In this document: piece by piece, positions 1,604 through 21,993 of the stretch
How the letters are laid out: every line of letters starts with the position of its first letter
Position numbering within the stretch: position 1 is the stretch's first letter
DNA from: a virus
Virus record (IMG/VR): IMGVR_UViG_3300045135_000862
Location: 1-23,879 of that record
Length of the DNA: 23,879 nucleotides
Direction: 5' to 3' (one strand)
Position numbers and translations under genes: made by a program
The notes under the pieces: model-generated
Databases searched by the model: none
The model's input: the letters and a program-made list of their open reading frames with translations, nothing else
What the model was told of the DNA's origin: nothing

Positions 1604-1636
1604 AAACCCCCAGTTAATCCCTGGGGGTTTTCTTTT
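1604..1636. terminator. Rho-independent terminator between convergent operons
   Basis: A perfect 10-bp inverted repeat, AAACCCCCAG (1604-1613) and CTGGGGGTTT (1621-1630), encloses a 7-base loop. On the + strand it is followed by TTTTCTTTT, a classic intrinsic terminator for the early operon. Read on the - strand, the same stem is followed by a weaker T-rich run, so it may also end the late operon, whose stop codon (1635-1637) touches the stem. It is the only intergenic space here. Confidence 0.92.
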
Positions 1637-5123: not shown

Positions 5124-5128
5124 GTGCA

Positions 5129-6103: not shown

Positions 6104-6106
6104 AGT

Positions 6107-6640
6107 CTACCTCGCCATCAAACCTTTAGGTTTCTCTTCAACCATTGTGTCCTCTGACATCTCAGGTTCTTCTTGTGGTTGTTCTTCTTCTTGTACGTTA
6201 GAACTTATCTCAGTCAAGAAGTCATACCCAGCATCACGTTCTTCTTCAGGTGTGGACTCAACAATCCGTACCATTCTAGCAGCACGTTCTTCAATGCTTG
6301 TTTCTTGTTCATCAAATGATTCTTTGTAATCAACACCAGCATTGTCAGCAATCTTCATGACAGCCCTACGGATGAGGGGTTCAACGATAAGACCTACATC
6401 AATGCTGTGCATTCCTTTAGCCACTGCACCAGTCATCATAGAGTCTGTCAGTGTCTTTACTGGCATCCCCATATCAAGTGCATAGAACACGTTGTCGATA
6501 ACCTCTGGATCAGCAACCCTGTCAAGGTGATACTTCACAGCTTCGTTAGGATCAGTAATCTCTGGCGGTCTTTCCCAAGCATAGTTCTTTGGTTCGTCCG
6601 TAAGAGACTGACCTGGTATTGGTCTATTCATTGCTGACAT
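6107..6640 (-). CDS. Small structural protein (PIPGQSLT type), unknown function
   Basis: A 177-residue acidic protein. The N-terminus carries PIPGQSLTDEPKNYAWERPPE, a stretch I recall from virion proteins of other marine phages. The middle (45-105) is helical with VIDNVFYALDMGMPVKTL and a hydrophobic VGLIVEPLIRRAVM helix. The C-terminal 50 residues are Glu/Pro-rich and probably disordered. There is no cysteine. Spacing to its neighbours is 3-4 bases, so it belongs to the late operon. It may be a minor capsid or core component; no enzymatic motif is visible. Confidence 0.6.
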   Translation of the reverse strand: MSAMNRPIPGQSLTDEPKNYAWERPPEITDPNEAVKYHLDRVADPEVIDNVFYALDMGMPVKTLTDSMMTGAVAKGMHSIDVGLIVEPLIRRAVMKIADNAGVDYKESFDEQETSIEERAARMVRIVESTPEEERDAGYDFLTEISSNVQEEEQPQEEPEMSEDTMVEEKPKGLMAR

Positions 6641-6644
6641 TGGT

Positions 6645-7448
6645 TTAACCTTCTAGTAGATTGAAGAACTCTTTTCTGAATCTTCTGACGTATTCGTTTA
6701 CTGAGATGTTCTGATCTGCTGCCCCTTCTTCAGTGGCTTTCTTCAGGGGTCTACCAGTAAACCAAACAGAAACTGCATCTTCAATATTTCCGTATTGATT
6801 ATATTTCTCAGTGATGAAAGCTCTGACAAGTTTATCTTGTGCAGCACTATCAGCTAGGAACTGTTCCTTAGTCATCTTAGTACCAAGGTATTGCTTAGTC
6901 CAGACAGGAATGTTCTTACCCATGACTTGGTACATACCATAAGCTCTGTCACCGTAGTACATGCTGTTCTTGTCTTTGATTACTTCACCAACTGCATCGT
7001 ACTTGTTTGTACTTTCAACAAACCCAAGAGCTTTAGCAGCCATATCAAGATCTGTTTCTATATCAAAATCAGGAATAGGAACACCATCTTCTACCTCATC
7101 CTGAGATATTCTTGGTGGCCTCTTAGCTTTAGCATCTTCACCACTCATCTCACTGGGCTTGTCTTCTCCTGCACCAAAGGCTTCATCAATGGCAGTTGCC
7201 CACCCACCGTAGAAGTTAGACAGTTCTTCGTCAGGATTGTTGCTTGCTAGTCTTGTATCGTCATCTTCTCTGGAAGATCTACGAACACCTTGCATTGCAT
7301 CTCTCATCCCCAACCGTGTCTGTTGAGCAGAGGCAAGACCTCTTCTTATACTCTGTGAAGTAGAAGTAGCTGATCTACCCTGCCAATCTTCAAGTGCACT
7401 GTCGAAGATAGCTTTTCTTTTTCGTTCTTGTCTTGCATCTAATGACAT
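6645..7448 (-). CDS. Virion-associated lytic transglycosylase
   Basis: A 267-residue protein with an N-terminal half (1-130) of charged, low-complexity sequence, probably disordered, and a lysozyme-like transglycosylase (SLT-type) domain from about 135 to 235. FVESTNKYDAVG places the catalytic Glu at 145. AYGMYQVMGKNIPVW (169-183) matches the G-x-Y-Q segment lining the active-site cleft, and AVSVWFTG (225-232) corresponds to the substrate-binding end of the domain. Such enzymes cleave the glycan strands of peptidoglycan locally during DNA entry. In T7 the equivalent domain is fused to the large internal protein gp16; here it is a separate gene. There is no signal peptide or holin nearby, which favours a virion role over a lysis enzyme. 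There is no cysteine. Confidence 0.8.
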   Translation of the reverse strand: MSLDARQERKRKAIFDSALEDWQGRSATSTSQSIRRGLASAQQTRLGMRDAMQGVRRSSREDDDTRLASNNPDEELSNFYGGWATAIDEAFGAGEDKPSEMSGEDAKAKRPPRISQDEVEDGVPIPDFDIETDLDMAAKALGFVESTNKYDAVGEVIKDKNSMYYGDRAYGMYQVMGKNIPVWTKQYLGTKMTKEQFLADSAAQDKLVRAFITEKYNQYGNIEDAVSVWFTGRPLKKATEEGAADQNISVNEYVRRFRKEFFNLLEG

Positions 7449-7449
7449 A

Positions 7450-10400
7450 TTAAATTCCTATAATCTTTAAGAATACTTCTTTCACAAAGTCACCAGCACC
7501 TGCAGAAGCTTCGATGTCAGCTTGTAACTTGGCAGCATCTGTTGAAGCATCAGCAGCAAGTTTCTGCAAAACAATCTCGTTAGCTCTGTTAGCATTGTTC
7601 TCTGAGATTTGGAAAGCCATAGAAAGAATGTCTCTTTCTCTCTGCCATATCTCATCTAGTGAAGTCATTGTCAATCCGTTTACAGCTTGTGTATAAGCCA
7701 TATTGGATTCGTTAGCTGCAGCAGTATTGATAGTAGCTAGGTTCTGTCTCCACTGAGCATTCGCCTGTGCAACAACAAGATAGTTCTGAGCATTGAACAT
7801 CTCTCTCTGGTTTTGCATACTAGCATTGAACTCAAGGAGTGAGTTGACCTCATCAGCATTGAACTGCTTCATAGCATTCATCTGTGCTGCATTGAACTGA
7901 TTGACTGAGGCTGCAAGGTTAGAGAAGAACTGGTTAGTCTGGTTCTCTGATGTAGCATTGAACTGAGCAGCAGCATTAGCAGCAGCCTGATCAGACAGGA
8001 TACTGTTAATTAAAGACTGTTGTTTAAACAATGCTGTCTGTTGTTCATTAGCTAAGTTAGCCATGTCTATTTGTAAGAAGTTCTGAGCATTCTGAACTGC
8101 AGCTTGTTGTTGGTTGCTTAAGTTCTGACTATCTAGTTGAGATAGAGCAGCAGCTTCTGCCATTACCAAGGCTTGCTCGTTACTCAGGTTTTGCAAAGCC
8201 ATTGTGTTTGCAGCCTTAGAGTTCTCAAGAGCAATCTGCTGTTCAGCAGTGAAGTTCATGTTAGCAATCTCAGAGACTTTAGCAGCATTCATAACCTTAG
8301 CTTGGAATGCTTGGTCAAAGTCCATCTGCAAGAACTTAGCTCTTTGCTCTGCTTTAAATAAAGCCATCTGCTGTTTATTACCAGCATCAATCTGTGCAAT
8401 AGGAAGAGCAGCTTCCATAGCAGCTTGGATGACAGCTTGTCCTGCCATACTTGAAGCACCTAGACCTCTGGCAGCAAGCATCTGTGAAGCAGCCCTCATA
8501 GATCCTGCAGCCCAAGCAGGTGTATCCCCACCTTCAAACTGAGCCATCAGGTTAGCTAGTTCACCTTGTACTGATGCAGCTTGTACTTCACCAGTACCGA
8601 ATGCTTCCCCTACTTTTGCTTGGTCTACACCAGTACCTTGGATAAGCTCACCATCTGGTCCTGTCTGTAGTGTACGAGTAGGAGCACCTGTAACATCTAC
8701 AGATTCACCAGTAGCAGCATCAAGACCAGATACAGAAGTACCTGTAGCTGTAGCAGCATCAATAGTTTGTGTAGGTCCAGTAGATGTAGCTGCAGTCATT
8801 CCTTCAGTAGCTTGCTGCACATCACCGAATGCTTGGTTAGCATCATAGGTTGCAGCACCCTGACCGACAGGAACATCAGCAGTCGTAGCAGATCCAATTT
8901 GTGCCACCTGATCCTCTTGCACCATCGGTGCTGTACCAAGTGCTTGGCCTGTACTGGAATCCATTACAGTGCCATAAGTATTAGGATCAATGTACGACAC
9001 AGGAGAAGCAGCTACAGCCCCACCTGGGTTAGCATATGCTTGAGCATTAAGGTTAGCTTGATACTGAGCTAAAGCATCTCTATCTACTTCTTTCTGCTCA
9101 GTTGTATATTCAGTATTTATGTCAGCAGTCTGAGGTGTTGTATCAACTACTTCTTGTTGCTGTTGTTGAGCTTGAATACTCTGTAGTGTAGCAGGGTCTT
9201 GAAGGTAAGACTGATAAGCAGCAAACATTTGGTCTTGATTGTAACCTGGTAGGTTCACATCATAACCTTGCTGCTGCAAATATGTATTATAGTCAGGTAA
9301 ACCAAGGTTAGCTGTACCCATGTCAAGGGCAGCTTTAGCATTCAGTGCTGAACCATAGTCCTGAGAGTATGTTCCATCAGGGTATTTAATTCTAAACTTA
9401 CCACCTTCTTCTACAACAGTACCACCAGGTTGGAAGTTCATTGCAGGGTTTACTGTAGCCCCTGTGTTAAATCCTTGGATTACACCACCTTGGTTCTGGC
9501 CTTGTACAGCAGAACCACCTTGTGTCTGGTCTTCAGTTCCAAATCCTTGGACTCTATAATAACCAGGAGGAATAGGTTGACTAGGCACACCATTAATATG
9601 TTGGACATACATAGACATACCAAACCTGTTACGATACAACACATTCTCAAATGCAGGAGCAGTACCAGCAGCTTGTTGTTCTGCTAGTGTCTGAGGTTGT
9701 CTTAACTTAGCAGACTCAGCAGCCCTATTTTCAAACTGTGTTTGCTGTAAACCTAGTCCTGCTTCGTAAGTAGGGATATCTACTTCAGTAAGGCCAGTCT
9801 GATCAGCACCGTAGACTGGGGTAGTAACTCCAATATTAGGTGTGCTTACAAAGTTTGGCCCAGTGTACGTTCCATCTCCCATGTCTCCACCTGTGATGTT
9901 ACCTCCAGTGGTAATACCACTCCCACCAGTGTTAATAGTACCCGTTGGACCTCCACTAGTACCAGATGGGTCATATCCAGGGTCTGCTATCTTTGTTTTT
10001 TTAATCAGATCCCAATCAAGCATATCAAGAGTTGCTTCCTCAAAACTTTGATTTTTAAGGTGATCTGAATAATATCCTTTTTCTCCTTGATCTCTTAGGA
10101 TATTCTCAACATAATTATAACCTTTACTTAAGTCAGCTCTAGTAGATGTTGTGCCTCTAGCTTTAGTAGATCCTGGATCTATACCTCTTCTTGCAAGTTC
10201 TTCTTGTAAATAAATGGCGTTTGCTGTGTTATTATTTACCACTTCAACAGTGTTTGGATCTAAACCTGCATCAATAAGGTCTTGTTCTGTAGGTCTTTGT
10301 TGATTTCTTTCATAAAGTATTTGAGCACCAACATCATTAGCTGAATTATTTCCATAAAAATTTTCATTATCACCAGGAGTATACCCATACTGTTTTAATA

Positions 10401-10770
10401 GATTTCTTGCTACATCTGCTTCATTAGAGATATCATTACCTGCATAAGTAGATCCTGCAATACCTACCTTTTCATAAGCAGCTTGTAATTCCCCTGTTGA
10501 AACACCAGTATTTTGAGATAGGTATACCAGATCAGCAAGTTCTTTAACTGCTTGTTCATCTACATTGAGAGGAACAGTTTTAGAGTTGTCTGGGATAAGT
10601 TGAGTACTTCCATCTTTGTCTACAAAAGCAACATCACCATTATCCTGAATTTTATACTTATCAGGATTACTCTCAAAGACTTTTTTGGTATCTTCATTTA
10701 CCGAATTTATGTTAATTGCAGGTGTATAGAGACCATTATTCTCGCCTACATATTTACTCTCTACTGCCAT
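7450..10770 (-). CDS. Large Ala/Gln/Asn-rich internal virion or tail protein
   Basis: A 1106-residue structural protein. Residues 1-250 form a mixed-charge N-terminal part; 260-310 is Gly/Thr-rich linker; 310-720 is Gln/Gly/Pro-rich with blocks such as GGSAVQGQNQGGVIQGF. From about 740 a conserved-looking segment, MLAARGLGASSMAGQAVIQA, leads into some 300 residues of Ala/Gln/Asn helix with loose repeats (NLSNEQQ, QFNA), likely a long coiled coil. Proteins of this kind occur in other marine podoviruses as virion components; the exact role is not known to me. There is no cysteine. Base composition falls sharply inside the gene: 34/60 G+C at 8461-8520 against 19/60 at 10321-10380, with the change near 9980. 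The N-terminal part may therefore have a different origin. An AAGG lies 9 bases before the ATG. Confidence 0.7.
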   Translation of the reverse strand: MAVESKYVGENNGLYTPAININSVNEDTKKVFESNPDKYKIQDNGDVAFVDKDGSTQLIPDNSKTVPLNVDEQAVKELADLVYLSQNTGVSTGELQAAYEKVGIAGSTYAGNDISNEADVARNLLKQYGYTPGDNENFYGNNSANDVGAQILYERNQQRPTEQDLIDAGLDPNTVEVVNNNTANAIYLQEELARRGIDPGSTKARGTTSTRADLSKGYNYVENILRDQGEKGYYSDHLKNQSFEEATLDMLDWDLIKKTKIADPGYDPSGTSGGPTGTINTGGSGITTGGNITGGDMGDGTYTGPNFVSTPNIGVTTPVYGADQTGLTEVDIPTYEAGLGLQQTQFENRAAESAKLRQPQTLAEQQAAGTAPAFENVLYRNRFGMSMYVQHINGVPSQPIPPGYYRVQGFGTEDQTQGGSAVQGQNQGGVIQGFNTGATVNPAMNFQPGGTVVEEGGKFRIKYPDGTYSQDYGSALNAKAALDMGTANLGLPDYNTYLQQQGYDVNLPGYNQDQMFAAYQSYLQDPATLQSIQAQQQQQEVVDTTPQTADINTEYTTEQKEVDRDALAQYQANLNAQAYANPGGAVAASPVSYIDPNTYGTVMDSSTGQALGTAPMVQEDQVAQIGSATTADVPVGQGAATYDANQAFGDVQQATEGMTAATSTGPTQTIDAATATGTSVSGLDAATGESVDVTGAPTRTLQTGPDGELIQGTGVDQAKVGEAFGTGEVQAASVQGELANLMAQFEGGDTPAWAAGSMRAASQMLAARGLGASSMAGQAVIQAAMEAALPIAQIDAGNKQQMALFKAEQRAKFLQMDFDQAFQAKVMNAAKVSEIANMNFTAEQQIALENSKAANTMALQNLSNEQALVMAEAAALSQLDSQNLSNQQQAAVQNAQNFLQIDMANLANEQQTALFKQQSLINSILSDQAAANAAAQFNATSENQTNQFFSNLAASVNQFNAAQMNAMKQFNADEVNSLLEFNASMQNQREMFNAQNYLVVAQANAQWRQNLATINTAAANESNMAYTQAVNGLTMTSLDEIWQRERDILSMAFQISENNANRANEIVLQKLAADASTDAAKLQADIEASAGAGDFVKEVFLKIIGI

Positions 10771-10781
10771 TATCTAATACC

Positions 10782-11552
10782 TTATAATGCTAAAGTCTGT
10801 CTAAGCTTTGTTGTATCTGCTTTAGTAAACTCTTGGTAATTACCTTTTAAATTCTCTGGGAAATCAATAAACTCTATAGTTGCACCAGTCTTATCTGAGA
10901 CTTCTAGGGCTACATCATAAAAGCTACGAGGATTTCCTGTGCCAAAATTCCATATACCTGACTCGTCTACATCAAAGAATCTTTGCTGATCCATTACGAC
11001 TTTGCCTACGTGGATAAAGTCCCTGAAGTATTTAGAAGAACCTTTGAACAATTTTATCTTACCAGTCGTTTTAGCTTGGAACATAAACTTGGTGAAGGGA
11101 CTTGCTTGGTTTCCTTTGTGTTCCTCGTGGGGGCCATGTACGTTGAAGTATCTAAATATCTGAGTAGTGATATCAGCATTTCTAAACTCTACATACTTTT
11201 CAAACAATGCCTTACTACGAGCATAATGGTTCTGAGGATCAACAGGAGATGTTTCCTTGAAGTCTGACTTTAATCCATAGACGGAAGCACTGGAAGCAAA
11301 CTGAAACTTAACGTTATGTTTGATACACTCTTCATACAACTTAATAGAGAACTCTATATTCTGTCTGTATATACGAGAGATGTTTGTCTCAGTTGTAGAG
11401 CTAATAGCCCCTAAGTGTATTACCCAGTCCAGTCCTTTTACTTTAGGAAAAGACATACCCCATTCATTCTTAAGTACTTCGTGATGAGGAGAAAGAGCAT
11501 TGACCATATTCTGTCCGATAAAGCCATTGCTGCCAGTAACTAGGATCTTCAT
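10782..11552 (-). CDS. hldD: ADP-heptose 6-epimerase (HldD-like), short form
   Basis: An extended SDR-type nucleotide-sugar epimerase. The dinucleotide-binding motif is TGSNGFIG (6-13); HLGAISSTTET (46-56), YARSK with Tyr110 and Lys114, FRYFNVHGPHEEHKG with Lys146, RDFIHV and FPENLKGNYQEFTKAD are hallmarks of HldD. HldD converts ADP-D-glycero-D-manno-heptose to the L-glycero form, the sugar donor for LPS inner core. Both catalytic bases (Tyr110, Lys146) are present. At 256 residues it is about 50 shorter than E. coli HldD. About 20 residues are missing between the cofactor motif and HLGA, and the last ~25 residues, after the TTKLR motif, are absent. The next gene starts 11 bases later. The ATG overlaps the cupin stop (ATGA). 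The pathway context confirms the call; activity of the short form is inferred. Confidence 0.88.
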   Translation of the reverse strand: MKILVTGSNGFIGQNMVNALSPHHEVLKNEWGMSFPKVKGLDWVIHLGAISSTTETNISRIYRQNIEFSIKLYEECIKHNVKFQFASSASVYGLKSDFKETSPVDPQNHYARSKALFEKYVEFRNADITTQIFRYFNVHGPHEEHKGNQASPFTKFMFQAKTTGKIKLFKGSSKYFRDFIHVGKVVMDQQRFFDVDESGIWNFGTGNPRSFYDVALEVSDKTGATIEFIDFPENLKGNYQEFTKADTTKLRQTLAL

Positions 11553-11905
11553 CTTTGACTGTCTCCTTTTCCTACTCTGTAATTATCTTCAACAGAATCA
11601 GGAGTAGAGACTTCTATTATTGTTCCTTCTTCTTCACAAATGATTTGATGAGGGACCAAAGGCTCATTACGCCAAGTGTCACCTTGCTCCAAATCTTTTT
11701 CATGAGTGCTTGCATCCACTGTGTCAATGTAGATAACTTTAAACTTGCCATCCAAGACATACCAGGTCTCATCCTTTTCCCTATGGAAATGCATTGAGAA
11801 CCTAGAGCCTTTATTGAACCGTAGAAATTTACCACAATATTTTTCATTGGTTGCCCATATTAATTCTGAACCCCAGCCTTTTTTAACAAAGCCTTCAAGT
11901 CTCAT
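11549..11905 (-). CDS. Small single-domain cupin, probable sugar-modifying or isomerase-like
   Basis: A 118-residue single cupin barrel. Motif 1 fits exactly: Gly33-x5-His39-x-His41-x4-Glu46-x6-Gly53, and Pro85-His86 supplies the second-motif histidine, giving a complete metal site. The fold is like the C-terminal cupin of mannose-6-phosphate isomerase / GDP-mannose pyrophosphorylase and is common in nucleotide-sugar clusters. It overlaps the kinase gene by 11 bases and the epimerase gene by 4, so it is translated with them. Its substrate cannot be read from the sequence. It could act on the heptose or a related sugar phosphate, or simply bind the product. The missing GmhA step belongs to a different fold (SIS), so equating the two would be a guess. 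Confidence 0.75.
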   Translation of the reverse strand: MRLEGFVKKGWGSELIWATNEKYCGKFLRFNKGSRFSMHFHREKDETWYVLDGKFKVIYIDTVDASTHEKDLEQGDTWRNEPLVPHQIICEEEGTIIEVSTPDSVEDNYRVGKGDSQR

Positions 11906-12665
11906 TTACTACCTCATTTAGTGTAGGTGCATACACACCTCTGTGTTGTACAGTTACTGCTGCTGCTTGCATTGCAAACTTAATAGCAGCATCCATATCA
12001 TACGATTCCAAGTACTTAAACACAAGTCCTGCAAGGAACGTATCTCCTGCACCACACACATCATGAGTTTCTACACTAGGAGGTAGGTAAGTTCTGTTCT
12101 TATACTCGACTTTCTTTGAGCCGTATGTGACGATTAGTTCGTCTGTTAGTGTTTCTGCTGCCTCCAGTTCGTACTGGTTTATCTTCACGAAGCAGCCATC
12201 AAACTGAGCTAGGTTGGTCTTCTTAGTATCAACAAAGATAGGGCCATTATACTTAGCTCTAATATCTTTTATATCACCTTCTGCTACAAATCCTTTGTTG
12301 TAGTCTGAGACAACAATAGCATCGTATAAACTTAGTAGCTTCTTATCTGCTGTGTCTATGTGCTCAGTTCTAATCTTTTCATCTACTCTGAGCAGTTGTT
12401 GACCAGTCTTGTCATCTACATATCTGTGTTTACGTTCTCTGTACTCTGTTATGATGTCTACCCTAGCCCCTAGATTTACTAGGTTGTTGTAGACGTTGTA
12501 TGCCATACCTCTTTTGATTACAGTTGAGGTAATATCAAAGACAGGAACAGGAGCCTCTGGGCTTATTCTGGTTACAGTGCCTGTGTGATACTCATCATAG
12601 CAACTGTCTCCTAGTAATAAAATCTTCGATTGCTTTTGTGGTAGACTGTCCATTGGTTCTCTCAT
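11895..12665 (-). CDS. hldE: Heptose-7-phosphate kinase (HldE N-domain-like), stand-alone
   Basis: A PfkB/ribokinase-fold protein matching the kinase half of HldE: KILLLGDSCYDEY (14-26), VTRISPEAPVPVF (31-43), VSDYNKGF (119-126), DTKKT and HDVCGAGDTFLAG (201-213), where Asp208 is the catalytic base of the GAGD motif. It phosphorylates D-glycero-D-manno-heptose 7-phosphate at O1. It is 256 residues against about 315 for the bacterial domain; roughly 35 residues in the lid region after residue 70 are lost. The usual Gly-Gly of PfkB signature 1 is Arg52-Gly53 here. The ATG at 12665 lies inside the adenylyltransferase gene (71-base overlap); an in-frame ATG at 12653 also precedes the conserved core. 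In bacteria the two activities are usually one protein, kinase first; here they are separate and reversed. Confidence 0.85.
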   Translation of the reverse strand: MREPMDSLPQKQSKILLLGDSCYDEYHTGTVTRISPEAPVPVFDITSTVIKRGMAYNVYNNLVNLGARVDIITEYRERKHRYVDDKTGQQLLRVDEKIRTEHIDTADKKLLSLYDAIVVSDYNKGFVAEGDIKDIRAKYNGPIFVDTKKTNLAQFDGCFVKINQYELEAAETLTDELIVTYGSKKVEYKNRTYLPPSVETHDVCGAGDTFLAGLVFKYLESYDMDAAIKFAMQAAAVTVQHRGVYAPTLNEVVNET

Positions 12666-13005
12666 AGAAGACTATCTCTTTGCAGTATTCCTCCCCAAGT
12701 ATTGTCTTCCCCTTCCAATCAGATCCTTTTACCATTACGTCAGGTTGATATTGTCTTATTAACTCAATCAACTCTTCGTCTGTATCAAACACCTTTACAC
12801 TATTGACAGGTTTTAACATAGACATTATATGTTTACGTATTGACAAAGAATTAAAAGGTCTCCCAGTACCCTTGTTATACTCAATACGCCTGTCTGTGTC
12901 AATAGCAACCATAAGATGACCACCTAACATACTAGCAAAATCAAGTAGATCTAGGTGTCCAGAGTGCAATACATCAAATGCACCATTAACAAAAACTTTC
13001 TTCAT
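12595..13005 (-). CDS. hldE: Heptose-1-phosphate adenylyltransferase (HldE C-domain-like)
   Basis: A 136-residue nucleotidyltransferase matching the C-terminal half of HldE. It starts with FVNGAFDVLHSGH, which contains the His14-x-Gly-His17 nucleotide-binding motif. It continues with VAIDTDRRI, GRPFNSLSIR, PDVMVKGSDW and, near the end, GQSTTKAIEDFI, the ISSTxx-like signature. It joins ATP and D-glycero-beta-D-manno-heptose 1-phosphate to form ADP-heptose. The length equals one complete domain. It is the first gene of the - strand part of the cassette beyond the phosphatase gene. AGGA lies about 10 bases before the ATG, inside the 17-base space shared with the divergent phosphatase gene. It overlaps the kinase gene by 71 bases in another frame. 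Confidence 0.88.
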   Translation of the reverse strand: MKKVFVNGAFDVLHSGHLDLLDFASMLGGHLMVAIDTDRRIEYNKGTGRPFNSLSIRKHIMSMLKPVNSVKVFDTDEELIELIRQYQPDVMVKGSDWKGKTILGEEYCKEIVFYERTNGQSTTKAIEDFITRRQLL

Positions 13006-13022: not shown

Positions 13023-13670
13023 ATGTCCAGATTCAAACATATTATCACACAAGAACCAAGTCAACAACCTCAACAAGAATTACCTCCAGATTGGCCTACA
13101 GTTTTTCCTAAGTCTATTGTAGGTTTAGATCGTGATGGTGTTATCAATGTAGACAAAGGACACTACATCACAGATCCTGAAGACTTTGAGGTGTACCCTG
13201 AGTCCCTAGCAGCTATCCACAAGTTACGTATGAAAGGTTACAAAGTAGTTATACTTACTAACCAGGGTGGTATTATCAAAGGATTACAAACACATGAGCA
13301 GGTAGAGGCTGTACATCAACGTATGTTTGAAATTTTTGGTAGAGCAGGTATCTACACTATTGATGGTCTCTTTTACTCTGAGTCTTCATTGAAAGATGAT
13401 ATGTATGCCAAGCCTAATCTAGGTATGTTTCACAGAGCAGAGAAAGAAATCTTCGGTGGAAAGACTAGGTTCAAAGATAAAGGTTTTTATGTAGGTGATA
13501 AGATGTCTGATCTTAAAGCTGCTGAGAGAATTGGTGCCACCCCAATCTTAGTAAGAACTGGTCATGGGGTGGACACTGAAGGAGAGCTAAAGAAGTTCTC
13601 AAAAGAGAAGTTAAGAAAGAAGACTAAGGTTTTCGATAACCTCCTTCAATTTGTGAACAGGCTACCTTAA
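13023..13670 (+). CDS. gmhB: HAD phosphatase, GmhB-like (heptose 1,7-bisphosphate phosphatase)
   Basis: A 215-residue HAD-family phosphatase and the only + strand gene in the cassette. The motifs are complete: GLDRDGVIN with Asp36 (nucleophile) and Asp38, ILTNQGG with Thr79, Lys130 in AKPNLGM, and GDKMSD with Asp159/Asp163. The sequence INVDKGHYI and the NQGGI-KG stretch resemble GmhB, which removes the C7 phosphate of heptose 1,7-bisphosphate. The zinc-binding Cys/His loop typical of GmhB, between motifs II and III, is absent and replaced by a short Ser/Asp/Lys segment. A Gln/Pro-rich extension of about 30 residues precedes the domain. A GAGG lies 12 bases before the ATG. Its start is 17 bases from the divergent adenylyltransferase ATG and its stop interlocks with the carbamoyltransferase stop (TTAA), so its promoter must lie inside the neighbouring gene or farther left. 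Confidence 0.82.
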   Translation: MSRFKHIITQEPSQQPQQELPPDWPTVFPKSIVGLDRDGVINVDKGHYITDPEDFEVYPESLAAIHKLRMKGYKVVILTNQGGIIKGLQTHEQVEAVHQRMFEIFGRAGIYTIDGLFYSESSLKDDMYAKPNLGMFHRAEKEIFGGKTRFKDKGFYVGDKMSDLKAAERIGATPILVRTGHGVDTEGELKKFSKEKLRKKTKVFDNLLQFVNRLP

Positions 13671-15382
13671 GCAGCCTCTTCTCCTAGATCCTCTACAACT
13701 GAATCATTGTAAGGGTAGTGTACTAACTTACCCATTTCTGGTAAATACAAGTAGTTGATGTCTGAGTTCTTAATAGTCTTCATGGCATCTTCTAGTGTTT
13801 CTACCAGTGGCTCACCTGCTAGGTTGAAGCTAGTGTTGAACAGGATAGGTACACCAGTAATCTTACGGAACTCATCAATAAGAGTATGGTACGTTTCATT
13901 CTGTTCTTTAGTCACAGTTTGAATACGACAAGTACCGTCTACGTGTGTGATAGCAGGACACTCACCATGCTTCTCTAGTTTAAAGTCCATTGCATACATC
14001 ATGAATGGTGACTCTTCCATACCGTAGGTATCGAACCATTCCTCAAAGTGTTCTTGCATCATGGAACCAGCAAAAGGTCTGAACCACTCACGTCCTTTGA
14101 CCTTGTTCACAGTGTCCTTACCGTTAGGATCTGTGGGATCGTACAGGATAGAACGATTGCCTAGTGCACGAGGACCAGCCTCAGAACGTCCTTGATACAA
14201 AGCTACAATATTCTTCTCAGAGATAAGCTTTGCTACATCAGCAGGTTTTACATCACTCGTTTCAATGTCATCAAAGTCATATGACTCTTCACGTTCAGGA
14301 CCAAGGTACAGAGTTCCCAATGGACGAATAGCTGTATCCTTAGTTTCTGTGTAGTGTACTAGCTGTGCTAATCCGATTGCTGTACCACCATCATGAGAGA
14401 TAGGATCAACATATATGTTAAGGTCAGGAAAACGTTTTTTGTAGTAATAGTTTGCTACACAATTAAGACCATAACCACCAGCAATAACAATGTTCTTTTT
14501 ATCAGTCATTGCTACGGCTTTTTCAATCAGGTCACCTACAAGAGTTTGTGTCTCGTCTTGCACTGCCCAAGCTATGTTTTTAGAAACATCTGTTATTCTG
14601 TCAGGTTCTTGATGCCACAAGTTAGACTTATCAATTTTATTTAGATAAGGATTTCTTGTAACGTCTACAAAAGCACCTGCTGGATAACTAGGATGAAATA
14701 AATTTCTATTTCCTCTACCTTTAATAAATATTTCAGGAATCATTTCATCGTATTTGCCATAAGGTGCAAGCCCCATAGTTTTACCTGCTTCAATAAACCC
14801 AAAACCAAGAAAATCAGAAACAGCTTCATAAGCTTTTACTGTTGTTATAGATGAATCCATATCAACTTTTTCAGAGGTAGCTTGAATAGTATCATAGTTA
14901 CCCCCAAACGATTGAAAGACTGCTTTAATACCTTCTTCATAATCACAATTAAAGATAGTCTCTGTTTCAAAACCAGGATTTTTATCTCCTCTTTCATTAA
15001 TCTGAATTTCTTGCCTACTTCCTGAACCATCAACAATTAATGCAACAGCCTCATCAAAACCTGAATTATAAAAAGCTGCAGAAGCATGACCTAAATGATG
15101 AAGATGCCCTAGATTATATACTTTAACATTAGGGTTAAACTTACGTACAAGTGCACTATAAGGATCTTCACCTGTCCAAGGTAGTTGTGGAAACTGGGAA
15201 CTTGTTCCTCCTAAAACGAGTATGTCTACTCCGTGTTTTATGGCTTCAAGAATACCTCTAAAAGGATTTCCATCATATTTGTTACGAGATAGACGTTCCT
15301 CTTCAATGTAGAACTTAATCTCACCATCTACCAGTAGGGCAGCAGAACCATTATGACCTGGGTTAATTGCTAGGATATTCAT
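13667..15382 (-). CDS. O-carbamoyltransferase, NodU/CmcH family
   Basis: A full-length (571-residue) carbamoyltransferase. The N-terminal Kae1-like domain has INPGHNGSAALLVDG (6-20), the metal-binding His95-x3-His99 in GHLHHLGHASAAF, and VDGSG (118-121). AGGYGLNCVAN (301-311) and SHDGGTAIG follow. The C-terminal domain has GRSEAGPRALGNRSIL (398-413) and REWFRPFAGS. In this family carbamoyl phosphate and ATP form a carbamoyl adenylate, and the carbamoyl group is then moved to a hydroxyl of a sugar or antibiotic. Its neighbours, a GT9-like transferase one base upstream and ADP-heptose genes downstream, point to a heptose-containing glycan as acceptor. A related activity is known in Pseudomonas LPS, where a core heptose is O-carbamoylated; the acceptor here is inference. 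It belongs to the transcript starting at the 16361-16389 promoter. Confidence 0.9.
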   Translation of the reverse strand: MNILAINPGHNGSAALLVDGEIKFYIEEERLSRNKYDGNPFRGILEAIKHGVDILVLGGTSSQFPQLPWTGEDPYSALVRKFNPNVKVYNLGHLHHLGHASAAFYNSGFDEAVALIVDGSGSRQEIQINERGDKNPGFETETIFNCDYEEGIKAVFQSFGGNYDTIQATSEKVDMDSSITTVKAYEAVSDFLGFGFIEAGKTMGLAPYGKYDEMIPEIFIKGRGNRNLFHPSYPAGAFVDVTRNPYLNKIDKSNLWHQEPDRITDVSKNIAWAVQDETQTLVGDLIEKAVAMTDKKNIVIAGGYGLNCVANYYYKKRFPDLNIYVDPISHDGGTAIGLAQLVHYTETKDTAIRPLGTLYLGPEREESYDFDDIETSDVKPADVAKLISEKNIVALYQGRSEAGPRALGNRSILYDPTDPNGKDTVNKVKGREWFRPFAGSMMQEHFEEWFDTYGMEESPFMMYAMDFKLEKHGECPAITHVDGTCRIQTVTKEQNETYHTLIDEFRKITGVPILFNTSFNLAGEPLVETLEDAMKTIKNSDINYLYLPEMGKLVHYPYNDSVVEDLGEEAA

Positions 15383-15383
15383 T

Positions 15384-16310
15384 TTACTTCACCTTCTTTT
15401 CGATGTCTTTTACGATGTTAGCATACATCTTGTTTATTTCATCATCTGTAAATTCTATTGTAGCTTCATTTGCTCTATCTGCCAAGTGAGATTCCAGACC
15501 TGAAATACGAATAGGTGAGTAAACTTTTGGAGTATCCCTTTCTATGATGTTGAAGTGTCTAGGGTACGTAGTGTTTATAGCAAACGTAGACCCTATAACT
15601 ACTGTGCCAGGTTTATTAAATGCCCTAGCTATGTGCTGCCCTACAGAGTCACAACCAATGAAGTAATCTGCTGCATCAATAAATGCTGACCACATACGAA
15701 GATCTGCTTCAGGCTTCATAGTGTATGTGTCTTCAGGCATCCAGAAGTTTTTTTCAGTAAATAAGACTAGGTTATATTTTGTTGCTAGTTTCTTTACCAG
15801 TTTAAGGTACGTGTCTGGATTAATAGAACGAGAAGACTGATCTAGAAGAACACCTTCTTGTGGCTTTTCAATAGACCTACCAAAAGGTTGAATAACAATA
15901 GTCTTCTGTTTTTGTTGTTGTTGCCTAACTTGCTGCATAAAATTAGCAGCTTGCAACTCTTCATTCCTATTTGTTTTAATAACAGGAGCACCAAGATCAG
16001 AGTGATCGTCAGTATCATTGATTAGGTAATCAAAAGCTTCAGCAAGAGATTTTTCTTGTTTGTAGTAACCTGGAACTCTGTATGGCTCTGGAGAAATAAC
16101 TCTGTCAGCATCCATAAAGAATTGTTCCATAGCTCCTTTTTGATCTGGGTTAAAAACTTTATCATGTAGCTCTGGTATCCCCCAGTAAAGAGTGTCCCAT
16201 CCTGCTACCATTACTCTAAAATCTTTGTTCTTTTTAGAGTATTTGATAAGAGCAGGAATAGCTGCTATAGCCCTACCTGCTCCACCATCAATCATAAAAA
16301 CAGTTTTCAT
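15384..16310 (-). CDS. GT9-like glycosyltransferase (heptosyltransferase-related)
   Basis: A 308-residue GT-B-type protein resembling family 9 heptosyltransferases. GGAGRAIAAIPALIKY (9-24) parallels the N-terminal GxGD...TP loop that holds the acceptor. KTIVIQPFGRS (136-146) starts the C-terminal domain. CDSVGQHIARAFNKPGTVVIGST (220-242) is the family's donor-binding motif (D-S/T-G..H..A....P...G.T). ADP-heptose made by the downstream genes is the natural donor. The GxGD aspartate position is not conserved in the usual form (Ala-Gly-Arg), so the acceptor or base may differ. A Gln-rich insert (126-135) separates the two domains. It is the first gene behind a promoter of its own; the ribosome-binding site is a weak AAGAAG. 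No membrane segment is visible, so it should act in the cytoplasm. Confidence 0.72.
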   Translation of the reverse strand: MKTVFMIDGGAGRAIAAIPALIKYSKKNKDFRVMVAGWDTLYWGIPELHDKVFNPDQKGAMEQFFMDADRVISPEPYRVPGYYKQEKSLAEAFDYLINDTDDHSDLGAPVIKTNRNEELQAANFMQQVRQQQQKQKTIVIQPFGRSIEKPQEGVLLDQSSRSINPDTYLKLVKKLATKYNLVLFTEKNFWMPEDTYTMKPEADLRMWSAFIDAADYFIGCDSVGQHIARAFNKPGTVVIGSTFAINTTYPRHFNIIERDTPKVYSPIRISGLESHLADRANEATIEFTDDEINKMYANIVKDIEKKVK

Positions 16311-16360: not shown

Positions 16361-16389
16361 ATTATACAAGAAAGTTTAACCTATATCAA
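16361..16389 (-). promoter_or_regulatory. Near-consensus sigma70-type promoter for the sugar cassette
   Basis: Read on the - strand: TTGATA (16384-16389), a 17-base spacer, then TATAAT (16361-16366). Only one base differs from the bacterial housekeeping consensus and the spacing is optimal. The -35 box overlaps the stop codon of the cysteine-rich tail gene. Transcription would start near 16354 and reach the glycosyltransferase ATG at 16310 after a leader of about 44 bases. It lets the host polymerase express the glycan genes independently of phage late transcription. Confidence 0.8.
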
Positions 16390-18365
16390 CCACAATAAAG
16401 TCTGTAGTAAAATGCACATTTACAGATTGCAGTGGTGCTGGGTGGTGCACAACACTGTTTACAAATAAAGGCAACAGCTACATGTAGTTTTGGGTGAGAA
16501 TCTGGTATTGTAAAATTGGTTCCAACCCAACGTAGTAGATTTGCATGGCAAGTACAAAGTTTAGAAGAATCCCCATACCCACACAGATTACCATACCGCC
16601 CATCATTACCACAATTACAACACCCAAAAGAAAGGTAATCACAGGGTATTCCATTATATTTTCTTCTATCAAAAGCAGTGCAGTCTGTGCTACCAAAGTT
16701 TGAGTCATACTCTATTCTTGCTGCAAAATGACCTTTGACGTTAGTAAAGGGAGAAGACCCTGCAGGTAGGTAAAGACCACCCATACCACACAATGCCCCA
16801 GGGTTAATATCACAAGAGCAAAGAAACATTGTAACAGGAAATAGTCCTATTCTATTACTTGTAGTACATATAGTAGAAGGAGTGTGACAAAATTTTGCAT
16901 TAAAGTTTTGTATATAGGTGTTATTTATATTCACACCTTGATGTAGTAATTGACAACAAGCATTTACACCACAGTTATCAAATCCAAAACAAAACCTACT
17001 TGCATTACACCCAACGTTGTTTGCACTTGCAAAACAAGTAATATTTTCTCTAGTTATCATAACACACTGAGCAGTAGCATCAAAACAGTCACTTCCATGC
17101 TCGTGCTTAAACATAGCAAAGTAAGATCTTGTAATACCACTTCGACACCCATAAGTTTCTACCATAAAGTAGTTTTTACCTACTGGTGTTACATTATTGA
17201 CAAATATTTCTGTTGGAAAAGTAGAACCATCATTAAAACAGAAAAAACATCTGGGGTCTCCAGTACAACAACATCTATTTAAATTAATTATTGTTCCATC
17301 ATTACATGCAAAGTTATAACCATGACAAGTACGACAACTTGCTTGAGCATGGTAGTAATAAAGTAATCCATTGCAAAAAAGTTTTATAGGTTTTGGTGTT
17401 GGGGTTCCAGATCCTCCTATAAGTTTATTACAACCATCAGTAAGAGGGACACAAACATTGGGTGTTAAACCTGGTAATGCACCGTTAAACCTAAATAATG
17501 CTGCAGCACTAAAAGTACATGCTTGACCTTCACAACAGCCATAACAAATAGCATTATTTTCTAAGATAGCAACACAGCATCTGTCTTCAGTAATTAACCA
17601 TCTTTTACACATACAGTCTTGTCGGTTCCAGTCAAAGCATTTTGCTACACCACCACATTTTCCTGCAATACAGTAGTAGTTACTAGCTACACAACAGAAA
17701 CAAAAGTCACAGGCTGTACCACAGTTAACAACATATAAACAGTTATTAAAACAATGATGCCCAAATACAGTCTTATCCCTAAACTCAAAAGCTACGTTAG
17801 AGTTAGAAGGACCATAAATTCTTAGAACACATCCACAACAACTAGTAGCAGTTGGGGGTCTATGAAAACCATTACAACCACAGCAACAAGGGCAGGAACA
17901 ACAATTAAAAGTTACTCCACAATTTGAAGGGGTAAACGTAAGATATTTTACATAACCACACCTATCGTGGGTATCAGGACACTGAAGACCACCGAAAATT
18001 AACTGACATGTAAAAGGATTAAAATGATCAAACATTTTAGTACAGCAAGAAAGACATCCTGCTGTTCCAGTGCTTGCAGTACAACACATAAAGTAAGGAC
18101 CAATCCAGTCAGAAACAGGAACACTCAAAGACTCAGAAAAAGCACCTCCTCCTGAAACCCAATCAGTACCATCATAAGCAAGAAGAGCACCTTCGTCAGT
18201 ATCAAAGTACAAAGAACCAGTAGCAGGAGATCCTGGCCTACTAGCTGTGTTCCCTGAAGGAGCATCCATACGTGAACTAGCTGTAATACAACACGAGGTA
18301 ACACAACAGGCACAAACGTTCCTGCTGTTATCGACCACCGTAGTGCCATTAATCTTATATGCCAT
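16386..18365 (-). CDS. Cysteine-rich tail / receptor-binding protein
   Basis: A 659-residue protein with 81 cysteines by hand count (12.3%), far above normal. Residues 1-75 are a tail-anchor module (KINGTTVVDNSRN ... RPGSPATGSLYFDTDEG ... YDGTDW), shared with the 71-residue gene just upstream and common at the start of marine phage fibre proteins. The body (about 88-659) is rich in Gly, Asn, Phe, Tyr and Cys with alternating hydrophobic stretches, suggesting a beta-rich fold; cysteines occur singly, in pairs and in clusters such as 155-164 (CC-S-C-P-CCC-G-C). I recognise no domain in the body. G+C drops at the module border: 28/60 at 18181-18240, 18/60 at 18001-18060. It lies last in the tail block, where receptor-binding proteins usually sit. 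Disulfide or metal cross-linking is possible; function and cysteine state are inferred. Confidence 0.75.
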   Translation of the reverse strand: MAYKINGTTVVDNSRNVCACCVTSCCITASSRMDAPSGNTASRPGSPATGSLYFDTDEGALLAYDGTDWVSGGGAFSESLSVPVSDWIGPYFMCCTASTGTAGCLSCCTKMFDHFNPFTCQLIFGGLQCPDTHDRCGYVKYLTFTPSNCGVTFNCCSCPCCCGCNGFHRPPTATSCCGCVLRIYGPSNSNVAFEFRDKTVFGHHCFNNCLYVVNCGTACDFCFCCVASNYYCIAGKCGGVAKCFDWNRQDCMCKRWLITEDRCCVAILENNAICYGCCEGQACTFSAAALFRFNGALPGLTPNVCVPLTDGCNKLIGGSGTPTPKPIKLFCNGLLYYYHAQASCRTCHGYNFACNDGTIINLNRCCCTGDPRCFFCFNDGSTFPTEIFVNNVTPVGKNYFMVETYGCRSGITRSYFAMFKHEHGSDCFDATAQCVMITRENITCFASANNVGCNASRFCFGFDNCGVNACCQLLHQGVNINNTYIQNFNAKFCHTPSTICTTSNRIGLFPVTMFLCSCDINPGALCGMGGLYLPAGSSPFTNVKGHFAARIEYDSNFGSTDCTAFDRRKYNGIPCDYLSFGCCNCGNDGRYGNLCGYGDSSKLCTCHANLLRWVGTNFTIPDSHPKLHVAVAFICKQCCAPPSTTAICKCAFYYRLYCG

Positions 18366-18395: not shown

Positions 18396-18611
18396 TCAAA
18401 TCCATTCAGTTCCATTGTAAGCTACTAACTTACCTTCATCTGTGTCAAAAAATAGGTGACCTGTGTTTGGTGAAGCAGGTCTTTGTGCTGTAGTGCCAGA
18501 AGGTGCAGTAAGGACGTTAGCTGTCACTATCGTCCCTTGCACTGATGGTGTTCCTGAAGGAATGTTTTTACTGTCGTCAATAACAGTTGTACCACTAACC
18601 TTTAGAGTCAT
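18396..18611 (-). CDS. Orphan tail-anchor module (71 aa), paralogue of adjacent adhesin N-terminus
   Basis: A 71-residue protein that aligns along its whole length with residues 1-70 of the cysteine-rich neighbour: LKVSGTTVIDDSKN against YKINGTTVVDNSRN, and APSGTTAQRPASPNTG followed by FFDTDEGKLVAYNGTEW against the matching segment. It stops exactly at the module's final Trp-Ile. It has no cysteine, even where the neighbour has five (18, 20, 21, 25, 26). The ATG overlaps the fibre stop by 17 bases, and GAGG lies 9 bases upstream, so it can be translated. It may be a remnant of an earlier adhesin whose body was lost, or a small functional adaptor. A 30-base space separates it from the next gene. 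Confidence 0.72.
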   Translation of the reverse strand: MTLKVSGTTVIDDSKNIPSGTPSVQGTIVTANVLTAPSGTTAQRPASPNTGHLFFDTDEGKLVAYNGTEWI

Positions 18612-21600
18612 TCTCTAGTTCCTCTACTTTACCTTGTAGACACTTCACAGTTTCAATGAGTGCACCTACCAAGCCATTATAGTTGACTGATTTGTAACCA
18701 TCGTCATCTGTTGTAACAAGTTCTGGGAATGCTTCTTCTACTTCTTGAGCAACAACACCCAATGTGTACTTACCAGAATCTTTCCAGTTATAGTTCACAC
18801 CTCTAATCTGACCGATCTTGCAGTAAGCATTCTCTACTGTAGTAATGTTCTCTTTGCATCTGCAGTCAGAAGTAGCATTAATGTCAGGAGCTACAACACA
18901 AGTTGTACCACAGATAATTGGAGAGTAAATACAAGTACCAGCACAAACACACTGACTAAATCTTCCTGCTACTGAACCACAAATCACAGGACCTTTTACA
19001 CATGTTGAACCACAAATGGTAGGGGCACGGGCAATGGCTGTACCACATATTACTGGTGATTGCACACATACATCAGAACATAAACAGTTAGCTTGGAAGT
19101 TATTTGCTAATGATCCATTCGTTGCAGCTTTACCTGCAAGACATGTTGCTAGTCCATCAACGTTAGCTACTGTGTGGTTGTGGCTATCATCTGCTACTGC
19201 AGTAAGTAAGTTCACGTTACCAGAACCATCCACTGAAGCAGAGCCAGTCACATCTCCACATATACAAAGTGTTCTAGCTGTTTGCCAAGCACTTGCTGTT
19301 GCTGCATTACCAGATGTGTTCTGATTTCCTGCAGTATTAACACCTGGTAGGTTTATGTTAGCTGAACCATTAAAAGAAACACCACCTATTGTACGTGCAG
19401 TTTCTAATGTTGTAGCAGTATCAGCATTACCAGTAACATCTCCTGTTACATTACCCTCTACGTTAGCTACAAGTGTACCTGTTGTAATAGAAAGGTTTCC
19501 TGTAGATGCACCAGTAAATGTACCTGTACCTACAATAAACTTATCTGCTGACTCATCAAAACCCATAAAGGCATTGGCACTGTCTCCACGTTCAATGATA
19601 ATACCTGCATCATTTGTAGGTGTTCCTGTCACTCCATTTGCTAATTCTATGATTGAGTCAGTAAGAACTTTGTTGGTTGAGTTAATAGTAGTTGTAGTAC
19701 CATTAACAGTTAAGTCACCTCCAATTATAACTGCCCCTGTTGTTGTAATAGCATCTATATACCCATGTGACCAGTAGTTAGAACTGTCACCTAAGCTATA
19801 TGTGCTATCAGCACTTGGAACAATATTAGAAGCAACATCTGCTGTAAGGGTTACAGTGTCAGTGGCTGCATTTCCTAAAGTAGTATTTCCATTAACAGTC
19901 AGGTTTCCTACAAGAGTACTATTTCCAGTTGTACAAACTGTAGCAAAGCAACTCGTACCAGAAGAGGTAACATTTCCTGTTAGATTACCTGTAACATTAC
20001 CAGTTACGTTTCCTGTTACATTACCTGTTACAGCACCACAAAGGTTAGTAGCACAAATGTTCGCCACACCAGTAATACATTGAGAGTTACCTGCTAGGTT
20101 TCCACCTAGTGTTGGAGAAGTATCTTCTTGAATACAAGTAAGAGCATCACCAAGGGTAAATGCAGCATTTGACCAAGCAGATCCTGTGTATACTTTTAGA
20201 GCATTGTCTGTAGTGTTCCAGTACAATGCACCAGTTAAGAGGGCATCTCCATCGTTGTCTACTGTTGGGTTTGATGCTTTATCACCAAGATATCTGTCAT
20301 CAAAGTTATCATATGCTGTTTCTGCATTGGTTGCCGAAGTAGCAGCAGCAGTAGCTGAGTTGCTTGCATTTGTTGCAGATGTAGCTGCATTAGTCTCTGA
20401 TGTTGCTGCATTCGTAGCAGAAGTAGCTGCTGCAGTTGCAGAACCTAGGATACCATCAACATAAGTTTTTGTTGTGAGATCAGCATTGTCAGTTGGTGTA
20501 TAGGTTGTAGTAATTTTACTAGAACCCATGTCGATAGCACCAGTCATAGTACCACCAGACAATGCTAGTCTTGTATCACGTTGTGTATCTGTATACGTTT
20601 TTGTGGCTGCATCTTGGGCATCAGTGGGATCACCTAGTCCTGTGATCTTTGATGTACCCATAGCAATAGCACCCGACATGGTTCCACCAGACAGGTTTAG
20701 CTTTAGAGCATCTTGTGTATCAACGTAACCCTTACGAGTTAGGGTATCATCTGTAGCAGGTGTAGCTGTAGATGTAGCTTTGTTAGCACCAAGGGTAATA
20801 TCCCCTGTCATAGTGCCACCAGCAGTAGCTAATTTTGTACCGATACAAGTCGTTAGTGTTGAATAGGCATTGGCATCGTCATTTAGAGCAGCAGCCAACT
20901 CATTAAGAGTATCAAGGGCACCAGGGGCACCACCAATCAGGTTAGTGATCTGTGTGTCTACATAACACTTTGTGCTTGCATCTGAATCAGCAGTGGGTGC
21001 ACCAAGAGAAGTAATCTTAGCAGAACCCATATCAAGTCCTGCTGTACCTGTCATGTTAATATCACAGAAAGTAGAAGTACCTGTTGAGATTACGTTACCA
21101 GTTAGGTTACCTGTTACGTTCCCTGTGACATTGCCAGTAACATTACCTGTAAGATCACCAGTTACATCCCCAGTAACATTCCCTGTAACATCCCCTGTAA
21201 GGTCTCCTGTAACATTTCCAGTAACGTTACCTGTCAGATTACCTGTTACATTGCCTGTAACGTCACCTGTAACTGCACCTGTTACTGGACCTACAAAACT
21301 AGTACCAGTAATTGTTGTACCTGTTATAGGACATGCTGTAGTAGAACCAATAGTAGTGCCATCAATAGCACCCCCATTGATATCGACTGTAGCAAAAGTA
21401 CCCTGTCCTGTCGTGCTAAGTGTAGTAAAACTACCAGCAGCAGTAGAGGTGGCACCAATAACAGTACCGTCAATATTACCTGCATTAATATCTACCGTAG
21501 CTAGTGTTGCTGTCCCTGTTCCACAAATGTTGGGGGCACATACTGTATCAGAGAAAGTAGAGACACCTGTGACACCTAGTGTACCTGAGAAGGTAGCATT

Positions 21601-21993
21601 ACCTGTAACAGCAGAAGTACCACCAACAGTGGCATTACCAGATAGGAATAGATTTTTAAATCTGTTTGTAGTTGTTACACCAAGATCAATGTCATCATCT
21701 GTTACAGGAACAACAGCACCATCTTGAACTCGTAGCTGTTCAACTGGACTTGCAGATACTTCTGTAAAGAAGCTAACCCTGTTGTTTGACGTATCAATAC
21801 AAACTTTGTTGTTTGCATCTGTATCTGCAATCAAAGGAACGTAAGCACCCTCAGTTGAAGTACCATCGTGTTTATGTCCTGTACTTGAATTAAAAGCATC
21901 TCTAACACAGTTAAACTCTGTGTCAACTGGTGCTGCTTTAACAACTGCACCTGCAACAATATCCCCAGAACTCTGCCTACAATAACCTGCCAT
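18595..21993 (-). CDS. Tail fibre with C-terminal S74 intramolecular chaperone
   Basis: A 1132-residue tail fibre. The N-terminal part (1-110: AGYCRQSSGDIV, STGHKHDGT, then VEQLRVQDGAVVPVTDDDIDLG) matches fibre starts of marine phages. It continues with VTGN/LTGN tetrapeptide repeats (237-300), beta-structured repeats of the TMTGAI-MG-S-KIT type (390-500), an Ala/Thr/Ser/Asn heptad stretch (about 515-556), a YWNTTDNALKVYTGSAW module near 590, more TGN repeats near 655-675, and a cysteine-rich P-x-I-C-G repeat zone (978-1038). Residues 1042-1132 form an S74 (endosialidase-type) chaperone: S1042-D1043 is the likely self-cleavage site, followed by KENI, NWKDSGK, GVVAQEVEEAFPELV and a final coiled coil. 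The chaperone drives trimer folding and is then released. There are 34 cysteines, mostly in the last third. It should bind a surface glycan or protein; the receptor is unknown. Confidence 0.88.
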   Translation of the reverse strand: MAGYCRQSSGDIVAGAVVKAAPVDTEFNCVRDAFNSSTGHKHDGTSTEGAYVPLIADTDANNKVCIDTSNNRVSFFTEVSASPVEQLRVQDGAVVPVTDDDIDLGVTTTNRFKNLFLSGNATVGGTSAVTGNATFSGTLGVTGVSTFSDTVCAPNICGTGTATLATVDINAGNIDGTVIGATSTAAGSFTTLSTTGQGTFATVDINGGAIDGTTIGSTTACPITGTTITGTSFVGPVTGAVTGDVTGNVTGNLTGNVTGNVTGDLTGDVTGNVTGDVTGDLTGNVTGNVTGNVTGNLTGNVISTGTSTFCDINMTGTAGLDMGSAKITSLGAPTADSDASTKCYVDTQITNLIGGAPGALDTLNELAAALNDDANAYSTLTTCIGTKLATAGGTMTGDITLGANKATSTATPATDDTLTRKGYVDTQDALKLNLSGGTMSGAIAMGTSKITGLGDPTDAQDAATKTYTDTQRDTRLALSGGTMTGAIDMGSSKITTTYTPTDNADLTTKTYVDGILGSATAAATSATNAATSETNAATSATNASNSATAAATSATNAETAYDNFDDRYLGDKASNPTVDNDGDALLTGALYWNTTDNALKVYTGSAWSNAAFTLGDALTCIQEDTSPTLGGNLAGNSQCITGVANICATNLCGAVTGNVTGNVTGNVTGNLTGNVTSSGTSCFATVCTTGNSTLVGNLTVNGNTTLGNAATDTVTLTADVASNIVPSADSTYSLGDSSNYWSHGYIDAITTTGAVIIGGDLTVNGTTTTINSTNKVLTDSIIELANGVTGTPTNDAGIIIERGDSANAFMGFDESADKFIVGTGTFTGASTGNLSITTGTLVANVEGNVTGDVTGNADTATTLETARTIGGVSFNGSANINLPGVNTAGNQNTSGNAATASAWQTARTLCICGDVTGSASVDGSGNVNLLTAVADDSHNHTVANVDGLATCLAGKAATNGSLANNFQANCLCSDVCVQSPVICGTAIARAPTICGSTCVKGPVICGSVAGRFSQCVCAGTCIYSPIICGTTCVVAPDINATSDCRCKENITTVENAYCKIGQIRGVNYNWKDSGKYTLGVVAQEVEEAFPELVTTDDDGYKSVNYNGLVGALIETVKCLQGKVEELENDSKG
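18880..19062 (-). repeat. P-x-I-C-G repeats in fibre stem before the S74 domain
   Basis: Residues 978-1038 of the fibre contain four P-(V/T/I)-I-C-G-(S/T) units (PVICGT, PTICGS, PVICGS, PIICGT) at uneven spacing, with extra cysteines between them (C-V-C-A-G-T-C). The region directly precedes the chaperone, so it would form the tip of the mature fibre after cleavage. Cysteines recurring at the same repeat position suggest stacked or cross-linked thiols in a trimer. Confidence 0.75.
19972..20031 (-). repeat. Second TGN tetrapeptide repeat block (5 units)
   Basis: Five 12-base units encode VTGN x4 and LTGN in the fibre gene, the same unit as the larger block at 21094-21285. Third-position changes between units show it is not a recent perfect duplication. 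Confidence 0.85.
20324..20446 (-). repeat. Ala/Thr/Ser/Asn heptad repeats (21-base units)
   Basis: The fibre gene encodes repeated seven-residue units of the AATSATN / AATSETN type, about five to six in a row. Such stretches are common in phage fibres and form a helical or linker neck; here they lie before the RYLGDKASNPTVDNDGD module. Confidence 0.75.
21094..21285 (-). repeat. VTGN/LTGN/VTGD tetrapeptide repeat block (16 units)
   Basis: Sixteen consecutive 12-base units encode residues 237-300 of the tail fibre as (V/L)-T-G-(N/D/A). The codons vary at third positions, so the protein repeat is kept by selection rather than by recent duplication. It probably forms a regular beta-rich shaft whose length can change by unit gain or loss. 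The long open frame on the opposite strand here is a by-product of this periodicity. Confidence 0.92.

Follow-up and report, generated by a model that had tools for sequence, protein, structure and literature searches.

Cysteine-rich tail adhesins of phages are genetically linked to a glycosyltransferase cassette, and the link is real and widespread. In the window (the whole 23,879-nt stretch of viral DNA that was analysed, IMG/VR record IMGVR_UViG_3300045135_000862), it is represented by a distal tail adhesin and by a set of sugar genes encoded beside it (Table 1). On comparative sequence grounds, S-glycosylation is the leading explanation of this link: the cysteines are, on balance, probably acceptors for phage-encoded glycosylation, the sugar probably being an S-linked heptose that is then carbamoylated.

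The cysteine-rich adhesin and its gene neighbourhood

The stopper gene of the window shares 72% identity with its counterpart in Roseobacter phage CRP-1 and 34% with the one in Puniceispirillum phage HMO-2011; gene order agrees as well, and the window was therefore assigned to an HMO-2011-type podophage. By sequence, the ORF is identified as the distal adhesin of such a marine phage, in line with the adhesin character noted in the first-pass annotation. Ordinary Cys-poor adhesins are found in the cultured relatives CRP-1, CRP-2, CRP-9, CRP-13 and HMO-2011, among others.

Table 1. Genes of the adhesin locus and of the adjoining sugar cassette (coordinates in the window)
Feature	Coordinates	Strand	Remarks
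S74-type tail fibre	18595..21993	minus	1132 aa, 34 Cys, many C-terminal
71-aa anchor-only protein	18396..18611	minus	Cys-free paralogue of adhesin N-terminus
Cys-rich distal tail adhesin	16386..18365	minus	659 aa, 81 Cys, ATG start
GT9-like glycosyltransferase (phrog_8954)	15384..16310	minus	308 aa, directly downstream of Cys-rich adhesin
NodU-like O-carbamoyltransferase	13667..15382	minus	
GmhB-like heptose bisphosphate phosphatase (HAD)	13023..13670	plus	
HldE-like heptose-1-phosphate adenylyltransferase	12595..13005	minus	
HldE-like heptose-7-phosphate kinase (PfkB)	11895..12665	minus	
Cupin of sugar cassette	11549..11905	minus	
HldD-like ADP-heptose 6-epimerase	10782..11552	minus	

Cysteine accounts for 12.3% of the adhesin (72 TGT and 9 TGC codons), and residues 155-164 read CCSCPCCCGC; the count (81 in 659, over 12%) and the cluster, both reported in the first-pass annotation, were confirmed from the ORF translation. 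At a nominal Cys frequency of 1.1%, the binomial probability of this count is about 1e-56, and chance is excluded as the source of the excess, whatever plausible Cys frequency is assumed. Not one Cys occurs in five other proteins of the window's structural module (1635-10770, 3038 aa), so only the adhesin and, less markedly, the S74 fibre are enriched. The feature is not peculiar to one protein: the fibre carries 34 Cys, against 0-5 in its orthologues where the phage has no glycosyltransferase. The adhesin gene directly follows that of the fibre; the small Cys-free, anchor-only protein encoded between the two, perhaps an adaptor, is conserved at the same position in relatives.

An assembly or frame error, which had been raised as a way in which the observation might vanish, is unlikely: more than 20 further contigs from other samples contain residues 1-71 of the adhesin, including the five Cys, at 75-90% identity, and dozens of independent contigs have a Cys-rich protein in this slot. 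Inspection of the DUF1289-like ORF (271-504), which has its expected Cys, led us to discard a recoding of TGT/TGC. Neither the window nor any of eight loci yielded a tRNA gene.

Residues 1-71 form a conserved anchor with PHROG matches to virion structural proteins. For residues 72-659, a viral contig scan and iterative and profile comparison gave no detectable homologue, and nothing significant against all the other Cys-rich families; the whole adhesin had no relative among the viral contigs and no tblastn match in cultured phages. The figures for Cys conservation given below were obtained from different families that occupy this gene slot and do not concern the body of the window adhesin.

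In the adhesin body, 14 CC pairs were counted versus 9.8 in shuffled sequences, which is not significant (at least 14 in 178 of 2000 shuffles). No regular Cys spacing was found in the adhesin beyond the effect of sheer Cys number, and the protein contains no known Cys-rich domain, as had been noted from the sequence at the outset. These results bear on a metal-binding adhesin, in which Cys clusters would hold Fe, Zn or Cu and so stabilise the fibre or exploit host metal-uptake receptors. CC, CxC and CxxC are common, which speaks for such clusters, but they lack regular spacing, CC does not exceed its frequency in shuffles, no motif around the cysteines was found in the families compared (nor is any common to them), and metal has no link to the sugar cassette; we consider this reading very improbable.

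The NodU-like protein has both the N and the C Carbam_trans domains, well above the respective cut-offs (PF16861, 209 bits versus 27; PF02543, 72.5 versus 24). In NCBIfam, the cassette proteins match ADP-heptose enzymes best, but with scores below curated cut-offs, and no GmhA isomerase was seen in the window. The glycosyltransferase matches heptosyltransferases weakly (E 2e-5 to 0.006) and below curated cut-offs (PF01075, E 0.006, 16.4 bits versus 22; TIGR02201, 23.9 bits versus 170), and PDB sequence searches with it returned nothing useful. GT9 heptosyltransferases have a D-x-G-x-H-type nucleotide-binding motif in the C-terminal half and an N-terminal G-D, of which the Asp is catalytic. In 10 aligned sequences of the phage enzyme, D221-S-x-G224-Q-H226 is invariant and agrees with the first motif; G12-R13 is invariant at the place of G-D, a pair that is present in two GT9-like proteins of locus L333. 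The weak profile scores and the invariant G-R suggest an enzyme that departs from ordinary GT9 heptosyltransferases, and could fit a changed acceptor.

Pairing of cysteine-rich adhesins with the glycosyltransferase

Loci were anchored on the stopper gene, on the adhesin anchor and, later, on the glycosyltransferase, and were chosen by homology to these and not by Cys content alone; the Cys-rich proteins in them have 200-1400 aa or more. After de-duplication, the HMO-2011-type loci that extend 6.5 kb or more past the stopper gene comprise 36 with a Cys-rich adhesin as well as the glycosyltransferase and 16 with neither, and none is discordant. The corresponding Fisher P of 1e-13 is inflated by near-copies and shared ancestry, and a tree was made for this reason: on it the glycosyltransferase switches state four times or more, and Cys follows in 4/4 independent pairs, with none against, four pairs being too few to reach P 0.05 by themselves. 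The glycosyltransferase was absent from the complete genomes of ten Cys-poor relatives in a search that detected five positive controls.

A Cys-enriched ORF lies upstream at 83 of 89 distinct glycosyltransferase loci, each with at least 3.5 kb of upstream sequence. Among the six loci where none was clear, one (L296, glycosyltransferase at 9001) has well-covered Cys-free adhesins: the enzyme and the carbamoyltransferase adjoin glycine-rich adhesins with 0-1 Cys, and the locus is an exception to the pairing. In loci lacking the glycosyltransferase, Cys-enriched ORFs numbered 4 in 515, all on short contigs of that type, which break off ahead of the glycosyltransferase position. A pattern-based set included eight Cys-enriched ORFs with no enzyme close by, most of which do not resemble adhesins. 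Two plausible adhesin-like ORFs with 4.0-4.5% Cys (L098, 3-2798) lie on a virus contig of 118 kb where the enzyme went undetected. Searching with a DNA pattern for densely placed Cys codons yielded chiefly chance frames.

The same pairing occurs in tail-fibre loci of the T4-like cyanophages S-SSM7, P-SSM2, Sf-FS3, S-CAM1 and S-CAM3 and of single-cell virus contigs, where the glycosyltransferase-carbamoyltransferase-heptose cassette adjoins one to three proteins with 7.6-11.6% Cys and the enzyme is 34-52% identical to that of the window. Nine phage-like contigs from genome assemblies have it as well. Contigs binned to bacterial and archaeal assemblies (L324-L332; e.g. Euryarchaeota, Neomarinimicrobiota) resemble phage contigs, several of them of cyanophage type. 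In three cyanophage cassettes (L236, 24547-29964; L238, 19047-23520; L332, 8658-11551), 2OG-Fe(II)/prolyl-hydroxylase-like and tryptophan-halogenase-like genes stand among the heptose genes, and the island may serve several modifications of tail proteins.

Cys-rich tail proteins (5-13% Cys) fall into at least 15 sequence groups, nearly all encoded just upstream of the same GT9-like enzyme (15384-16310 in the window), a NodU-like carbamoyltransferase and, in many cases, ADP-heptose genes. Clustering of the bodies of 139 distinct sequences gave 22 multi-member groups plus singletons at the thresholds used, some of them maybe distantly related. Since many unrelated adhesin families are Cys-rich, the feature does not belong to one fold. 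Large phage genomes with the enzyme (L298, L302, L304, L292) encode NNIAIGxx-type repeat proteins with 50-130 Cys, which by eye look like trimeric autotransporter heads; in L298 and L292 the Cys often stands right after the IG of the repeat.

The enzyme might instead glycosylate the adhesin at Ser, Thr or Asn, the Cys richness being a separate but linked trait (substrate presentation, redox control). Association alone names no acceptor, and known adhesin heptosyltransferases use Ser (PMC4358343). This alternative nevertheless appears quite unlikely, as it is Cys that tracks the enzyme, rising from 0.4% in adhesins of phages without the glycosyltransferase to 9.8% in those of phages with it; the adhesins of enzyme-bearing phages have less Ser, Thr and Asp. 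The first-pass annotation had listed disulfides, metal, thiol exchange and a sugar attachment site, and had held that none could be chosen from the sequence. The list contained the explanation preferred here, and the comparative evidence now leans towards it: sugar attachment is favoured by the near-exclusive pairing of Cys-rich adhesins with the glycosyltransferase and carbamoyltransferase, often together with heptose genes.

Conservation and setting of the cysteines

Between Cys-rich adhesin homologues, Cys retention is 0.81, a value exceeded by Gly alone; in a homologue pair with 54% identity outside Cys, 84% of the Cys are retained. Unconserved Cys positions had been put forward earlier as the mark of drift, and in the same-slot homologous families the cysteines proved to be among the best-kept residues. 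A functionless accumulation of Cys, by compositional drift or as an artefact, has the absence of spacing rules in its favour and nothing else; it is refuted for these homologous families, and the zero Cys in other structural proteins of the same genome makes it barely credible overall.

Where Cys is exchanged, it is replaced by N (14.6%), S (10.7%), T (8.9%), A (7.6%), Y (6.7%), R (6.1%) and Q (6.1%); D, E, K, R, N and Q together make up 35% of the replacements, and V, I, L, M, F, W and A 28%. This profile indicates that the Cys sites are mostly polar and probably exposed. A Gly-rich adhesin with one Cys, from a phage without the glycosyltransferase (L032), is 41% identical over aligned columns to a 20-Cys adhesin from a glycosyltransferase-bearing phage (L259); at the 18 Cys columns of L259 that it covers, L032 has T (5), S (5), N (4) and others (4, including one Cys). 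Cys-poor orthologues of the S74 fibre have A, T, G, N, V, S or L at its Cys positions, a mixed set that possibly includes buried sites; this and the lack of a motif around the cysteines count against the acceptor reading.

Structure prediction gave a partial model for a cyanophage Cys-rich family (pLDDT 60, pTM 0.64), whose sequence profile had no match in the PDB. The model resembles the fibre of cyanophage Pam3 (PDB 7yfw and 7ypx; Z 14.7-15.5, with 192 residues at 3.3 Å for Z 14.7) and the glycine-rich domains of ALK/LTK (Z 8-10), likenesses that concern the predicted fold of this cyanophage family and not the body of the window adhesin. Both matches are in keeping with a receptor-binding tip. 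In the model, 22 of 27 Cys lie outside strands, a placement that is uninformative because 74% of the whole chain does so too. AlphaFold2 gave no usable model (pLDDT 27) for a family of adhesins of about 1140 aa.

The strong conservation of the Cys positions would also be expected of a disulfide-locked adhesin, in which pairing of the cysteines, once lysis has brought the phage into oxic water, would stiffen adhesins rich in loops, with a cassette that travels along and changes the host surface for superinfection exclusion; the LPS-type genes of P-SSM2 have indeed been published as changing the host surface (PMC2984593). However, disulfides fit poorly with the exchange of Cys for N, S, T, R and Q and with close homologues that dispense with Cys when the glycosyltransferase is lacking. 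Nor does a travelling cassette explain why the Cys of unrelated adhesins comes and goes with the glycosyltransferase, in many families and in two phage types, and this explanation is considered unlikely.

Proposed glycosylation and known systems

In the mechanism proposed for S-glycosylation, the phage cassette would make ADP-heptose from host sedoheptulose-7-phosphate by means of the HldE-like kinase and adenylyltransferase, GmhB and the HldD-like epimerase. The adjacent GT9-like enzyme would move the heptose onto the Cys thiols of the adhesin in the host cytoplasm, yielding an S-linked glycan, and the NodU-like enzyme would then carbamoylate the sugar. The adhesin cysteines would accordingly be kept as acceptor sites for a phage-attached sugar, and the sugar coat may tune receptor binding or protect loops. 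More tentatively, we suggest a widespread class of bacterial viruses whose adhesins could be Cys-loaded scaffolds, densely covered with S-linked carbamoylated heptose by the phages' own enzymes, with Cys as the acceptor and not Ser or Asn.

If this is true, host recognition in abundant aquatic phages rests on adhesins glycosylated at an unusual acceptor, many phage genes filed under LPS synthesis decorate the virion and do not alter the host, and a new family of Cys-specific glycosyltransferases with broad substrates is open to biochemistry. The cultured phages P-SSM2, S-SSM7 and S-CAM1 have the same pairing.

The LPS-type cluster of P-SSM2 was published as host-surface modification genes (PMC2984593). 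Its homologous genes (T4-GC 302-308) adjoin two Cys-rich proteins, neighbours that go unmentioned in the papers found; PSSM2_304 and PSSM2_306 are examples of Cys-rich proteins of this phage. As far as could be found in the open-access literature, where no paper on it was seen, the link between Cys-rich phage proteins and the cassette is undescribed.

Two bacterial systems offer the nearest comparisons. In TibC/TibA and Aah/AIDA-I, a dedicated heptosyltransferase that uses ADP-heptose hyperglycosylates a large surface adhesin, with Ser as the acceptor (PMC4358343). The proposed phage system would likewise combine a dedicated ADP-heptose enzyme with a large adhesin. It differs in that the bacterial adhesin is an autotransporter and its enzyme carries both a beta-barrel at the N-terminus and an iron finger of four Cys; the phage enzyme, of 308 aa, has a single Cys and so lacks this finger, is paired with many adhesin families and is followed by a carbamoyltransferase. 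For sugars on Cys thiols, the counterparts are the glycocin S-glycosyltransferases SunS and ThuS, dedicated enzymes that are encoded beside their substrates; they are of GT2 type, use UDP-sugars and modify small peptides with one or two sites. In contrast, the putative phage substrates are large tail adhesins with tens of Cys and the enzyme is GT9-like, the S-linkage being the feature that the two systems would share.
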